From a virus: a stretch of 27,176 nucleotides of DNA. The translations under genes and the position numbers were made by a program. Position 1 is the stretch's first letter. Every line of letters starts with the position of its first letter. Below the pieces are notes generated by a model. It was not told the origin of the DNA. It worked only from the letters and a program-made list of their open reading frames with translations, and made no database searches. Below, in pieces: positions 810-25,933 of the stretch. The stretch spans positions 1 to 27,176 of the IMG/VR virus record IMGVR_UViG_3300035179_000912; one strand, written 5' to 3'.

Positions 810-2285
810 TTATACACGCAAACCTGAAGGCAAAGTTGTGGGCGCCGCTTGATTATCCGGCCAGAATAGGTAAACCTTAGTTTGCAGTAGCATTCCGCAT
901 ATCTTTATGAGACGAGCCATCTTTTCCAATGGAGCTTTCTTCAATGCCTCGGCGTAGAGGCTGACTTTTCCATAGACGTTGCGTGAAGCAAATTCTTTGA
1001 GGAATCTAGGATGCCGATACTTGATAAAGGCGGCTCGTAGCTTGTTCAAATCAGCTGAGTTTAGAAGACGCAATTTGTGCAATAGATAAGTTTGGGAGCC
1101 TAGGAATTGAGGGTTAAAGCCTAGATCAGACAGAGTTTCGCAAATGCAGAGGAGTCCTTTGACAGGACTTTGCTGGGTGATCCGCTGCATCCCAGCGTTT
1201 TCTGCAAAGGGATTGTACTTTGCCATGACTGCAACCATTTCAACGTGCGTTCCGACAAGCGGCAGTGTATCTCCGATCAACTTCTTCCCCAGTCCCATTG
1301 TCCGATATTTTGGATGCACAACGACACGGCTGATAATGCTCAGTTTCTCGTTAAGTTCATTCATACGCATTCTGGGTAAAACCATTCTGCGACCGTATGC
1401 ATTAGGGGGTGGATAACAGTAAACAATCACGCCGCACACTTCCTCTGCACGCCGGAGAGAGAAGATCTTGCGAACAGCACCCAGTCTGTGGCTTCGATAA
1501 TGAAAACTGGCGAGCCGCTTCCAATCCTGCGTTGTACCCTCCGAAACATGCATCTCTCCCATCAGACTGCACTCTCGGGCTGGCTCGTTTGGATAATATT
1601 TGACTGATATCTCCTTACCGAAGCGCTTGTGAACATGAACACTAGGCTTCAAATCCTCAAACAAGTCAGTATGAGTTGTGGCCGCAACAACAGCTTTTCC
1701 AAGGGCTCTCGCAAGCTTCTGTACATTAAAGGCCACAATCTTCGCTGTATCCCGGTCTAGTGTGGCGCAGAACTCGTCCATCACCCACCATTGTCTACCG
1801 CTCTCAATCAACTTGGCGAGACGGTACCTGTATCGCTGACCATCTGACAGTTGATTGTAGGTGCGTAGGAATAAAAACGCGTCGTTAAGGCCCACGCGGC
1901 TTAGAAGCTCCAGGCCTTCCTCAACCGTTCTGCCAAGCGTTTCGATAAGCGGCCTGTCAGCATCCACTCTAACACGGGTCATCTCAACCGCCTCAGGTCC
2001 AAGATCCTTAAGCAGAGCTCGCAAGAAAACACTCTTGCCGCTACCACTATCGCCCGTAATGTACACAATGTCCTTCGGAGAAAGGTTCAACTCAACATTG
2101 TCATATATCACGAACTTCTCCCATTTGTCAAGACCTAATCCAAAGCCTTCAGCAACCGCAACAACTCTCTCACTAGGTCTAGGAGCCGCAGTTTCATACG
2201 CGACATCAAGAACAAACTTGCCAGAAATTCTATCATAACGCCTAGCAAACTTGCAGATCCTGAAATACTCTCTTGCTCTTCTCAT
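810..2285 (-). CDS. COG2401-like ABC-type ATPase fused to GNAT acetyltransferase
   Basis: The 491-aa protein has an ABC ATPase core in its N-terminal half: Walker A GDSGSGKS (78-85), signature LSDGQ (146-150), Walker B WVMDE (167-171) and an H-loop His in TTHTD (about 205). No transmembrane segment is present, so it is not a transporter subunit. From about residue 240 a GNAT fold follows, with the acetyl-CoA loop motif R-T-M-G-L-G (329-334) after a VVVHP strand. This order matches COG2401, known as an ABC-type ATPase fused to a predicted acetyltransferase, whose biochemical role is unknown to me. The C-terminal helix (KICGMLLQTKVYLFW) recurs at 23.5 kb. The ATG start lies about 80 bp beyond a T-run terminator, so it is probably transcribed apart from the late operon. 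Possible roles include modification of a host or virion protein driven by nucleic-acid binding; that is inference. Confidence 0.85.
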   Translation of the reverse strand: MRRAREYFRICKFARRYDRISGKFVLDVAYETAAPRPSERVVAVAEGFGLGLDKWEKFVIYDNVELNLSPKDIVYITGDSGSGKSVFLRALLKDLGPEAVEMTRVRVDADRPLIETLGRTVEEGLELLSRVGLNDAFLFLRTYNQLSDGQRYRYRLAKLIESGRQWWVMDEFCATLDRDTAKIVAFNVQKLARALGKAVVAATTHTDLFEDLKPSVHVHKRFGKEISVKYYPNEPARECSLMGEMHVSEGTTQDWKRLASFHYRSHRLGAVRKIFSLRRAEEVCGVIVYCYPPPNAYGRRMVLPRMRMNELNEKLSIISRVVVHPKYRTMGLGKKLIGDTLPLVGTHVEMVAVMAKYNPFAENAGMQRITQQSPVKGLLCICETLSDLGFNPQFLGSQTYLLHKLRLLNSADLNKLRAAFIKYRHPRFLKEFASRNVYGKVSLYAEALKKAPLEKMARLIKICGMLLQTKVYLFWPDNQAAPTTLPSGLRV

Positions 2286-7284: not shown

Positions 7285-7659
7285 CTATTCCGAGGAAGCT
7301 TCCTCAGTTGCGTACTGCAACGCGGCAGCAACAATCGAAAGAAAATTCATGGCATTCTCGCTCAGAGCTCGCGTCAAGAAATACCGTGCCTGAATGTACC
7401 GCGTTCCAAGCTCTTGAAAGATTGCGTATGGTACCATGCACGCGACCTTGACGACCCACTTGTAAATTATCTGTGAGTATATGCTTGAAATCAACCGTCC
7501 GGTACGAATTGGTGCAAGCTCCTGAGCCCTTCGTATAACAAGCCGGCCAGTCTGATTCAACGCGTCCTGCACATACTTCTGCGTCGCATCATCCAGTCGA
7601 CGCATTCTCTCAGCAAAATCTTCAATGCCGCCAACTTCAACCCGAAACTGTACGGTCAT
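7285..7659 (-). CDS. HK97 gp10-like minor tail/neck protein
   Basis: The 124-aa protein matches the HK97 gp10 family pattern: an N-terminal FRVEVGGIEDFAERMRRL, the central AP(I)RTGRLISSIY, VPYAIFQELGTRYIQARYFLTRAL, and a C-terminal amphipathic helix. Members act at the head-tail joint or as minor tail components in siphoviruses. Unusually it is placed after the tail chaperones instead of before the tail tube. Its ATG overlaps the preceding stop as ATGA, indicating coupled translation. Confidence 0.8.
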   Translation of the reverse strand: MTVQFRVEVGGIEDFAERMRRLDDATQKYVQDALNQTGRLVIRRAQELAPIRTGRLISSIYSQIIYKWVVKVACMVPYAIFQELGTRYIQARYFLTRALSENAMNFLSIVAAALQYATEEASSE

Positions 7660-7859
7660 CCACGGAAGCCCCTTTGAGAACCAGATTCTCTCTTGGCCTT
7701 GTCAATTTCCTGTTGAGTCTGCCGGTCAATCTCTGCAAGAATTATCAGAAATTCCTGTATCTTCTTACTAGGTTGCTGCTCTAACTCTTCGACTGTCCAT
7801 CCGAACTCTTTGCACAAGCGATAATCTGTCAGGGCTGGATGCGGTCTTCCGCGTCTCAT
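7656..7859 (-). CDS. Tail assembly chaperone, downstream (-1 frame) part
   Basis: The 67-aa ORF (LTDYRLCKEFGWTVEELEQQPSKK onward) resembles the short T part of tail-assembly chaperone pairs (lambda G/GT type): a 'd..L..efGwt..el...p..ki..fl.il' helix set followed by a basic linker. It lies in the -1 frame relative to the preceding ORF and contains its own ATG at 7859. Ribosomes slipping at 7871-7877 would read through LLRA into this ATG and make a fusion of about 188 aa. It could also be translated separately, because GAGGGC precedes the ATG by a few bases. Chaperones of this kind coat the tape measure and recruit tail-tube subunits. Confidence 0.8.
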   Translation of the reverse strand: MRRGRPHPALTDYRLCKEFGWTVEELEQQPSKKIQEFLIILAEIDRQTQQEIDKAKRESGSQRGFRG

Positions 7860-7877
7860 CGCCCTCAGGAGTTTTTT
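7831..7877 (-). promoter_or_regulatory. Probable programmed -1 frameshift site with nested stem-loop
   Basis: On the minus strand the zero-frame codons AGA AAA AAC contain the heptamer A AAA AAC (7871-7877), a canonical X XXY YYZ slippery site. The zero-frame stop TGA follows one codon later (7865-7867). Five nucleotides after the heptamer, AGGGC (7861-7865) can pair with GCCCT (7831-7835). Inside that stem, GCGG-AAGA-CCGC (7841-7852) forms a perfect tetraloop hairpin. The -1 frame is open from the heptamer into the downstream chaperone ORF. This is the arrangement known for G/GT-type tail chaperones in tailed phages. Confidence 0.8.
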
Positions 7878-8221
7878 CTTTCCTCAACCGACAGGTTGAT
7901 AACACTGTTGACTTTTTTCTCAAGGAGCTCGGCAAGTTCAGGCGGAACGCAAGTGTCAATGTCCCGACTCAGAAGCTTCTCAAGAGTAATAGGGTTAGCG
8001 GTGCCTAATCCTTTACCTGGCTGCTTCAGGCTTGCCAAAACAAACTCTGCCTGGATTGCAGTATGGTTTATATTCAGAACTTGTCCTGTTTGATGATTGT
8101 ACTGCGTGTACTTCTCGATAATCTCTTTACGCACCGCCCAGGGAAGTTGCCTTGCAACGTAGTGGCCTCTGTATTCTTGGCCATAGCTCTCGTCGACATC
8201 AAACTCTTCTTCCTTTCGCAT
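7865..8221 (-). CDS. Tail assembly chaperone, upstream part
   Basis: The 118-aa product is acidic at its start (MRKEEEFDVDESYGQEYRG) and then largely helical (QLPWAVRKEIIEKYTQYN, IQAEFVLASLKQP, PPELAELLEKKVNSVINLS). This matches the size, composition and position of G-type tail chaperones, which follow the tail tube and precede the tape measure. It ends ERKNS at the slippery site, so a fraction of ribosomes probably continue into the next ORF. Its ATG lies inside the preceding small gene, a 23-bp overlap. Confidence 0.8.
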   Translation of the reverse strand: MRKEEEFDVDESYGQEYRGHYVARQLPWAVRKEIIEKYTQYNHQTGQVLNINHTAIQAEFVLASLKQPGKGLGTANPITLEKLLSRDIDTCVPPELAELLEKKVNSVINLSVEERKNS

Positions 8222-8416: not shown

Positions 8417-9292
8417 CTAGCTTATCCAGAGATCTCGAGCAACAAACTTCGCCTTCACGCTCACAAGGTCCTCTTTCTTGTTCGGCAAGTCCCAATCTTC
8501 CCACTTGCAATGCTTGAACAAGGCCGTGTTTGTGCTTCCAAGGCCGAAAAGCAGACTGAACTCAGTATCATTCAAGATATCCACAAGCTCGGAGTTGCTC
8601 TCAAACTCCATAGTCAACTCGCCCTCAAGCTTACGATTTCTTTCACGCAAATATTTTAGCCATAATGCAGTGCCACCGCTTTGAATCACTCCAACAGGTT
8701 TCAGGTTATTCTCAACATCGAATTTCCAATCAGTCACATCAGTTAAGGTCACACCGCTTCCGCCTGAGGGAACACCCTTCTGCACATAAGAGTTGTTGAA
8801 CGGAACTGCGCCAGAAAAGTCACCGTATGTTGCACCTGTGATCAAAGAAGTTCCATATCCAATATTTCGTCCTATCAATTCAACATTTGCTTTTATCACA
8901 TCTTCCAGGTGACATTCAACGCTCAGCTTGTCAATCTTGCAACCAGCCAAAAGAAAGCTAAGAATGTCCGATGGATTTGACCACAAGCCTTTGTAATAGA
9001 GGATTTGAACGCTTAAGCTGCTGAGCGTTTGAACATGCTGTATGAAACTAATAGGCGAAACACTCGATAGGGCACTGGGAACTTTCAACGTTACTTTCTC
9101 CAGTCCAGCATTTAGACTTTGAAGGTCTCTGCTACCAATACCCATCGTTTTTATCAATCCAGGATCTACTTTCGGCTCCATGCCTTCCGTGTTTATTCCA
9201 AGGAATGCAGGATTAGCAGGCGTCTCGCTATACACAGTTTCTGCCACAAAATAGATTCGCGATTCATGCGCACCGTACGTTTCAACACTCAT
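8417..9292 (-). CDS. Major tail tube protein
   Basis: The 291-aa protein has the usual tail-tube traits: a short polar N-terminus (SRIYFVAETVYSETPANPAFLGI), beta strands throughout, Gly/Ser loops in the middle, and a C-terminal section (GELTMEFESNSELVDILNDTEF then VSVKAKFVARDLWIS) like Phage_tail_3/TP901-type tube proteins. It lies directly after the tail terminator and before the chaperone pair, the canonical slot. GGTG about 6 nt before the ATG serves as ribosome site. It should polymerise into the tail lumen. A contractile sheath gene is not seen, so a siphovirus-like tail is most likely. Confidence 0.8.
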   Translation of the reverse strand: MSVETYGAHESRIYFVAETVYSETPANPAFLGINTEGMEPKVDPGLIKTMGIGSRDLQSLNAGLEKVTLKVPSALSSVSPISFIQHVQTLSSLSVQILYYKGLWSNPSDILSFLLAGCKIDKLSVECHLEDVIKANVELIGRNIGYGTSLITGATYGDFSGAVPFNNSYVQKGVPSGGSGVTLTDVTDWKFDVENNLKPVGVIQSGGTALWLKYLRERNRKLEGELTMEFESNSELVDILNDTEFSLLFGLGSTNTALFKHCKWEDWDLPNKKEDLVSVKAKFVARDLWIS

Positions 9293-23267: not shown

Positions 23268-23447
23268 ATGCGCTATTCCATGGCACGGAAAATCGTCAGA
23301 GTCTACCTCTCGACTGAACAAAAGAAGCTTCTCGAAAGGATATGCAAAAGCTTGGGAATTGACGAGAGTGAAGCCCTTCGCGAGGCCTTCATGGACTACG
23401 CCAAATCAATAAGCCTGATAACAGAGAAAGTCCATGGGAAAATCTAG
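23268..23447 (+). CDS. Small RHH/CopG-like DNA-binding protein
   Basis: From ATG 23268 the product is 59 aa (ATG 23280 gives 55). KIVRVYLSTEQKKLLERICK, then LGIDESEALREAFMDYAKSI, is a ribbon-helix-helix pattern: strand, helix, turn at G-I-D-E-S, helix. It is transcribed divergently from a larger RHH gene with a shared operator. The pair resembles an early/late or maintenance switch. Its 3' end overlaps the COG2401-fragment ORF by 14 bp. Confidence 0.75.
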   Translation: MRYSMARKIVRVYLSTEQKKLLERICKSLGIDESEALREAFMDYAKSISLITEKVHGKI

Positions 23448-23637
23448 GCGAATGCCTCACGAGACTGTTGGGCGCGCGCTTGCAAGGATGATCAAACTGT
23501 GCGGTTTTCTCCTGCAGACGAAGGTTCACCTGTTTTGGTTCAGTTGTGGATTCCAAAAGCCACATTCCAAATCGGACATGAGTCTAACAAGTGATTATAA
23601 CTATGTTGTCATCCTTAACCATTCTTTCAGGGCCTGA
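23434..23637 (+). pseudogene. Fragment homologous to the C-terminus of the COG2401-like protein
   Basis: This 67-codon frame contains ALARMIKLCGFLLQTKVHLF, then W. It matches the C-terminal helix of the COG2401-like protein at 810-2285 (ARLIKICGMLLQTKVYLFW) at 15 of 19 positions, with conservative changes at the rest. The similarity covers only about 20 residues and no ATPase or GNAT motif is present. It could be a relic of a second COG2401 gene or a small stand-alone gene carrying that helix. The last 37 bp overlap the convergent gene at 23601-24083. The two copies lie in opposite orientations flanking the whole late cluster. Confidence 0.55.
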
Positions 23638-25394: not shown

Positions 25395-25651
25395 CAGAGT
25401 AGATGGCCAGAATAGAGCGAAGGAAAACGATGACCCATAGCTGAAGTATGACAGCGACAAAAGCTATGGTTTTGGCATGGCTTTGTCGTGCCAGAAGATA
25501 AGGCTATGGCGAGATGCGACCTGGCTTCCCCACCTTACCTTGCTCTTCTGACAGTCATCTACTCTTAACCTTTGTGAATCCAAACTATAAGAGTTTTGCC
25601 GTTATACCGCTTTGACCTTTTACAGTTAGATATATGTACTGAATAGCCTAT
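25395..25651. other. Gene-free segment with a hairpin and one operator-like site
   Basis: No gene is apparent. GGCATG and CGTGCC near 25474-25493 can form a 6-bp stem with one wobble pair. A copy of the 15-bp GCGGTATAACGG site lies inverted at 25599-25613. Nothing else is interpretable. Confidence 0.45.
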
Positions 25652-25810
25652 TTATTTCTTTCCTTCTTTGTGCTTCTGCATAAACTCTCGAATTGCGTCT
25701 TCAGTCCATTCGCTGATCTTCCGTGTTGAGCCTGTCTCATGTACTACGAAATCAATCCATTCTCGCCAGAGCTTATCATCAACGGATACTGAGGTCTTGC
25801 GTCTTGACAT
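25652..25810 (-). CDS. Small RHH/Arc-type DNA-binding protein (52 aa)
   Basis: ATG 25810 opens a 52-aa frame. MSRRKTSVSVDDKLWREWID, then FVVHETGSTRKISEWTEDAI, is a textbook ribbon-helix-helix: a KTSVSV strand, helix, G-S-T-R turn, second helix, and a Lys-rich end. A minus-strand TATA (GGTATATTCT, 25828-25837) lies about 22 bp upstream, so the mRNA is nearly leaderless, and operator-like sites overlap it. It probably represses itself and the divergent transposase-like gene. No toxin partner is visible, so an antitoxin role has no support here. Confidence 0.75.
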   Translation of the reverse strand: MSRRKTSVSVDDKLWREWIDFVVHETGSTRKISEWTEDAIREFMQKHKEGKK

Positions 25811-25872
25811 TTCCGCTCACAATGACAGAATATACCGTTAGCGGCATATAGGTTTTGCGGTATAAGAGTAAA

Positions 25873-25882
25873 GCTTAAATAC
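25873..25882 (+). promoter_or_regulatory. TATA-like box for the transposase-like gene
   Basis: GCTTAAATAC lies about 57 bp before ATG 25934, which is preceded by a GGTG ribosome site. The GCGGTATAACGG operator falls between the expected transcription start and the ATG. Confidence 0.45.
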
Positions 25883-25933
25883 GTCTTTGGACATATAGAT
25901 GTATAGCGGTAAAGCGGTATAACGGTGAAAGAA

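Follow-up and report, generated by a model that had tools for sequence, protein, structure and literature searches.

A predicted programmed -1 ribosomal frameshift in the tail assembly chaperone gene of a Bathyarchaeia-type siphovirus, and two classes of slippery heptamer among its relatives

We analyzed a 27,176-bp virus record (IMGVR_UViG_3300035179_000912), referred to here in its full length as the window, in which two overlapping open reading frames (ORFs), the second in the -1 frame, are located on the minus strand between the tail tube gene and a weakly assigned tape measure gene (Table 1). The 118-aa zero-frame ORF ends with GTT GAG GAA AGA AAA AAC TCC TGA, so that the heptamer A_AAA_AAC is in the correct phase for -1 slippage and a single codon separates it from the stop. 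Reading in the -1 frame is uninterrupted between 7883 and 7656 and takes in a 67-aa ORF; the predicted fusion of the two frames is 188 aa long and carries the junction peptide RKNLLRAM. The heptamer, the stop and the open -1 frame had all been described in the initial annotation, and its coordinates are correct throughout. An ATG belonging to the 67-aa ORF itself stands right behind the zero-frame stop, a feature absent from that annotation.

Table 1. Coordinates of the features at the chaperone locus and in the neighboring tail genes of the window
Feature	Coordinates	Strand	Basis and details
Zero-frame ORF, 118 aa, predicted short tail assembly chaperone (G)	7865..8221	-	AlphaFold and Foldseek
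Slippery heptamer A_AAA_AAC	7871..7877	-	Zero frame, correct phase; sequence and relatives
Zero-frame stop TGA, one codon past the heptamer	7865..7867	-	Sequence
-1 frame extension (T-like domain), predicted to give the 188-aa GT product	7656..7871	-	Open -1 frame, phrog_9001, Finn gp22
ATG of the 67-aa ORF, at which a free T domain might start separately	7857..7859	-	Conserved in class A
Stem-loop	7831..7865	-	Outer arms 7865-7861/7835-7831; inner arms 7852-7849/7844-7841; spacer 5 nt
Tail tube protein, upstream of the G/GT pair	8417..9292	-	Pfam Phage_tube_2, E 3.5e-14
HK97-gp10-like/Neck1 tail completion protein, between GT and tape measure	7285..7659	-	PF04883, E 2.3e-6; phrog_5, E 1.3e-18
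Putative short tape measure protein, 255 aa	6471..7238	-	Weak tape measure PHROGs, E 0.0065, 0.017

No match was obtained when the 118-aa protein was searched against sequence families. Its AlphaFold model (pLDDT 86) was compared by Foldseek and matched (predicted) viral tail assembly chaperones with probabilities of 0.97-1.00, among them those of Bacillus phage Gemini (1e-3), Siphoviridae ctsDY37 (8e-4) and HCTV-1 (3e-2), and the matches in the PDB, YqbN (3klu) and the HK97 chaperone (2ob9), were weak (E about 0.5). The -1 extension matches the tail assembly chaperone family phrog_9001 (E 2.2e-15) and gp22 of Bacillus phage Finn (50% identity, E 8e-11). The annotation of Bacillus phages 276BB001 and 019DV002 gives the homologous pair as one short CDS plus one joined CDS with a frameshift. 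The sequence relation between the G domain and the Bacillus G is weak (hhalign probability 20%). Identification of the window pair as probable G and GT tail assembly chaperones is thus strongly supported, by a sequence match for T and by the predicted fold for G.

The surrounding genes belong to a tail module. Genes for capsid, tube, G, GT, gp10-like, tape measure and hub follow one another in the same order in the window and in proviral loci of Bathyarchaeota, which are syntenic with the window and 41-68% identical. When genomes were scanned with the fused protein, 20 loci were recovered, of which 19 lie in Bathyarchaeota or other archaeal genomes, including one on a 2.15-Mb Bathyarchaeota contig, and a class-level search of Bathyarchaeia found a match in 32 of 257 genomes. 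The assignment to an archaeal virus made in the initial annotation agrees with these homologous, syntenic proviral loci in host genomes. The window virus would accordingly be of Bathyarchaeia type, a host assignment that comes from the 41-68% identical loci and not from a direct link for the contig itself. One family member (L018) comes from a metagenome-assembled genome of the bacterium Candidatus Bipolaricaulis, where it sits on a 24-kb contig; this bacterial placement is probably a binning error.

Several further observations were made around the tail module. The putative tape measure protein is 60% identical to a 253-aa match in provirus L013, and a tape measure protein of 255 aa, if it is one, would imply a very short tail. 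Throughout the family, the HK97-gp10-like/Neck1 gene separates the tape measure gene from the chaperone pair, which is not so in the Bacillus phages. In L013 (5512-6320), about 800 nt separate the -1 ORF from the gp10-like gene, whereas the two are nearly contiguous in the others. A single Bathyarchaeota genome (A05DMB-2) holds five copies of the chaperone locus and both U_UUU_UUA and U_UUU_UUG. An ABC-ATPase plus GNAT-like gene at 810-2285 (-) of the window is found again close to the tail module of Bathyarchaeota loci L011, L012 and L014 (48-68% identity), and appears to be viral because of this recurrence. The C-terminus of its product, RLIKICGMLLQTKVYLFW, resembles RMIKLCGFLLQTKVHLFW, encoded at 23434-23637 (+); the two are on opposite strands near both ends of the viral region, and no repeat of at least 30 nt was found there. 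An inverted repeat of 38 nt (25594-25930; 74% complementary, 261 nt between the arms) lies just upstream of, and slightly overlaps, the start of an ORF for a transposase-like SWIM-domain protein.

Conservation of the heptamer was assessed in 101 loci, made up of the best 80 of 432 viral-contig matches to an alignment of the fused protein and of the genome loci; one locus with an only distantly related T domain (L030) was omitted. Every one of the 101 relatives has an in-phase heptamer at the corresponding place, either A_AAA_AAC/U/A or U_UUU_UUA/G, 60 or 63 nt upstream of the codons for CKEFGW. Among 96 loci there are 57 A_AAA_AAC, 5 A_AAA_AAU, 1 A_AAA_AAA, 27 U_UUU_UUA and 6 U_UUU_UUG, and the remaining 5 loci have A_AAA_AAC (2) or U_UUU_UUA (3). 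The 96 loci collapse to 66 representatives at <90% nucleotide identity, and therefore are not all independent. As a background, an in-frame A6/T6 heptamer occurs elsewhere in the ORFs of these 66 representatives at 3 of 7252 codon positions. Twenty-three loci lay outside the narrow heptamer patterns; they were read by eye and with a wider pattern, which left zero exceptions, and in L042 the run stands in the context AAA AAA AAC with its phase retained. Furthermore, loci found by the zero-frame domain alone have the heptamer in 30 of 30 cases in Bathyarchaeia, in a set of one locus per genome that partly overlaps the 101. The initial annotation had named loss of the heptamer in relatives that keep both ORFs as an observation against slippage, and no such loss was seen. 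A single -1 step could mimic an indel, and the layout could then be a coincidence or a sequencing artefact that splits one gene. Some 100 assemblies share the layout, however, and their heptamer is of two different kinds that replace one another along the phylogeny; this practically negligible alternative is already refuted by that comparison.

The relatives fall into two classes. Class A, which includes the window, combines A_AAA_AAC/U/A with a near stop and a local stem; its zero-frame stop is 0-4 codons past the heptamer in 59 of 63 loci and 41-44 codons past it in four. Class T has U_UUU_UUA/G, one codon further downstream than the heptamer of class A, and nearly all of its members are without a -1 start codon, a near stop or a stem; the zero frame stays open for 25-46 codons beyond the heptamer. 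Between the heptamer and the CKEFGW motif, no -1 start codon was found in class T, except for a GTG or TTG near the end of the stretch in a few loci. Since the chaperone domain of class T is generally without a start codon of its own, it is readable only by a -1 shift, and in nearly all members frameshifting is the only evident route to this domain.

Past the heptamer, the -1 frame is under coding constraint in both classes. The entropies at -1 codon positions 1, 2 and 3 are 0.52, 0.25 and 1.25 in class A, and 0.55, 0.24 and 0.93 in class T. Pairwise identity in class T is 0.77 in the -1 frame versus 0.54 in the zero frame; the -1 frame is the constrained frame here, with variation concentrated at -1 third positions. 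In the tree, class T appears three times, and two of these events are forced by well-supported branches. One switch took place between near relatives, L049 of class A on one side and L060 and L081 on the other. Both halves of the latter two loci are closest to or near class A L049, and recombination is not favored as the cause of their switch.

The slippage sites are homopolymeric, and the -1 product could also be explained by transcriptional slippage on the A6/T6 run in place of ribosomal slippage. Runs of 6 nt are short for polymerase slippage, and the run is exactly 6 nt long in 59 of the 66 representatives. The codon preceding the heptamer takes ten forms in class A, with A always as the final base, and six forms in class T, with T always as the final base; the phase of the heptamer relative to the reading frame is invariant, which slippage of this kind would not require. 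Class A has, in addition, the local stem. We consider a transcriptional origin of the -1 product most unlikely, and favor slippage of the ribosome.

The nested stem reported in the initial annotation, in which AGGGC pairs with GCCCU and encloses GCGG-AAGA-CCGC, does form when this part of the window is folded. Its folding energy is -16.1 kcal/mol versus -8.7 kcal/mol for shuffles (z -2.98) over the interval that the annotation had proposed, with z about -1.9 in other folding windows and -0.7 in a 100-nt window. A structure about 5-9 nt downstream of the heptamer, as in canonical programmed -1 frameshifting, is found in the window and in class A, but not in class T. Relatives in class A pair in two registers, and single-sequence significance is modest in several of them. 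We therefore claim no single consensus stem, an option that was dropped and replaced by a test against synonymous recodings with control windows. Compared with synonymous recodings that encode the same -1 protein, the 45 nt after the class A heptamer fold more stably (mean z -1.11, P = 1e-7, from a t test on related sequences and thus a guide only). No excess stability over synonymous recodings was found in class A control windows 60 and 120 nt further downstream, and upstream windows show at most a weak excess. In class T, the region after the heptamer is less structured than expected from synonymous recodings (z +0.72).

A -1 start codon shortly after the heptamer is present in 63 of 63 class A loci (60 ATG, 3 GTG) and in 0 of 33 class T loci. 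The GGGCG that precedes it is conserved at synonymous sites, the Ala codon before the start being GCG in 34 of 38 representatives. Together, the start codon and GGGCG are conserved in class A even where pairing by the stem's 3' arm is not possible, and are absent in class T. These features could be explained if the 67-aa T domain were mainly a separate protein, reinitiated at the ATG after the TGA, with the A-run incidental. Several findings argue against this. Nearly all members of class T are without a start codon and must frameshift, and in class A the phase of the heptamer and the wobble A are kept across ten different preceding codons. SD-like pairing at the class A ATG is weak (16 of 38 representatives) and only 2 nt from the ATG, versus a good SD at the start of G. 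Moreover, in the four class A loci with the zero-frame stop 41-44 codons downstream, coupling cannot work. Reinitiation as the main source of the T domain is thus very unlikely. Ahead of the heptamer there is also an SD within the ORF; it slightly exceeds random positions in strength, and is inseparable from the Glu-Glu codons.

The conserved class A start codon is nevertheless a point against the frameshifting explanation, since the extension could also be produced alone, and a separately initiated T domain beside GT is therefore possible. Class A might use both routes, the -1 frameshift for GT and the conserved AUG for a free T, which is compatible with frameshifting as the best explanation. 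The heptamer and the start codon with its GGGCG are both conserved, and this only in class A. On the other hand, the stem and the peptide RAM may account for GGGCG and AUG, the SD spacing is poor, and the lambda model as given in PMC5009743 has no free T product. We regard the use of both routes as a minority possibility, rather unlikely but deserving of consideration.

We therefore conclude that the window very probably carries a G/GT tail assembly chaperone gene with a programmed -1 ribosomal frameshift, in a siphovirus of Bathyarchaeia type. The claim that such a shift makes both chaperones, put forward in the initial annotation, is strongly supported by comparison, through the 101 of 101 heptamers, class T and the chaperone matches. 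Most ribosomes would reach the TGA and release G of 118 aa. The stem would hold the ribosome at A_AAA_AAC, where the tRNAs for Lys (AAA) and Asn (AAC) would re-pair one base upstream, and some of the ribosomes would go on in the -1 frame to give GT of 188 aa. As in lambda, the two products would be expected to form a coat on the tape measure protein, and subunits of the tail tube would be brought in through the T part. What the analysis shows are the sequence, its conservation, the constraint on the frame, the fold and the family matches; that slippage occurs, its rate, for which the initial annotation assumed a fixed ratio, and the role of both products in assembly are inferred.

Lambda-type G/GT frameshifting is widely conserved in long-tailed phages (PMC5009743; PMC8211752). 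The window shares with lambda the order of tail tube, G and -1 extension before the tape measure, an X_XXY_YYZ heptamer near the end of G and the chaperone fold; it differs in the heptamer (G_GGA_AAG in lambda, A_AAA_AAC in the window or U_UUU_UUA in relatives), in the archaeal-type host and in the neck gene between GT and tape measure. The same gene order is found in Bacillus andromedaviruses and their relatives (Finn, 276BB001, 019DV002 and Geobacillus GBK1), together with a T domain of 30-50% identity and a -1 heptamer where G ends; 276BB001 and 019DV002 have a joined CDS in their annotation. However, their zero-frame domain is hardly recognizable by sequence, and their heptamers are A_AAA_AAG (6 of 8) or A_AAA_AAA (2 of 8), never AAC/AAU or U6. 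The initial annotation considered -1 slippage to be little documented in archaea. The cases are few, one being the -1 frameshifting at an A-rich slippery site in Sulfolobus fucA1 (PMC8211752), a cellular enzyme gene unrelated in protein and purpose. G/GT frameshifting in archaeal viruses is not undocumented, though, since a g-t -1 shift has already been proposed for HVTV-1, HCTV-1, -2 and -5 (PMC5009743; PMC8211752). These are also archaeal head-tailed viruses, and the HCTV-2 site is likewise A_AAA_AAC (PMC5009743), but they belong to another archaeal phylum, also use G_GGA_AAC and G_GGA_AAG, and have no reported U_UUU_UUA class. While G/GT frameshifting is thus of a known kind, the two-heptamer pattern in this family is unreported. 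Papers on Bathyarchaeia viruses and archaeal proviruses do not mention frameshifting, which, in a search that mostly covered papers free of subscription, points only weakly to novelty.

On mammalian ribosomes, A_AAA_AAC ranks with the sites most prone to shifting, and HIV shifts at U_UUU_UUA, whereas E. coli prefers A_AAA_AAG, which works far better there than either of the two (PMC5009743). A_AAA_AAG was found in 0 of the 101 archaeal-type relatives, although most bacterial homologues use it. Class T tolerates G at the last position (Val in the -1 frame) at 6 of 36 sites, and protein constraint is therefore unlikely to be the sole cause of this absence. It may be that the decoding apparatus of the host, and not the gene, sets which heptamer works. 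A broader proposal, about as likely as not, is that head-tailed viruses of Bathyarchaeia keep one programmed -1 frameshift in two interchangeable solutions: A_AAA_AAC is paired with a stem, whereas U_UUU_UUA goes with avoidance of local structure and a zero frame that stays open. The second would have replaced the first three times (two of them forced), both would be of mammalian/retroviral type to the exclusion of A_AAA_AAG, as set by the archaeal decoding apparatus, and class A may add a free T.

Archaeal -1 frameshifting is known from very few cases. Within a single protein context, this family offers about 66 natural signals that differ from one another, along with bacterial homologues to set against them, and thus makes slippery sequences and stimulators for archaeal ribosomes directly testable. 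It uses almost only heptamers of the mammalian/HIV type, not the A_AAA_AAG preferred by E. coli, and annotation that ignores frameshifting would truncate or mis-annotate the class T genes.
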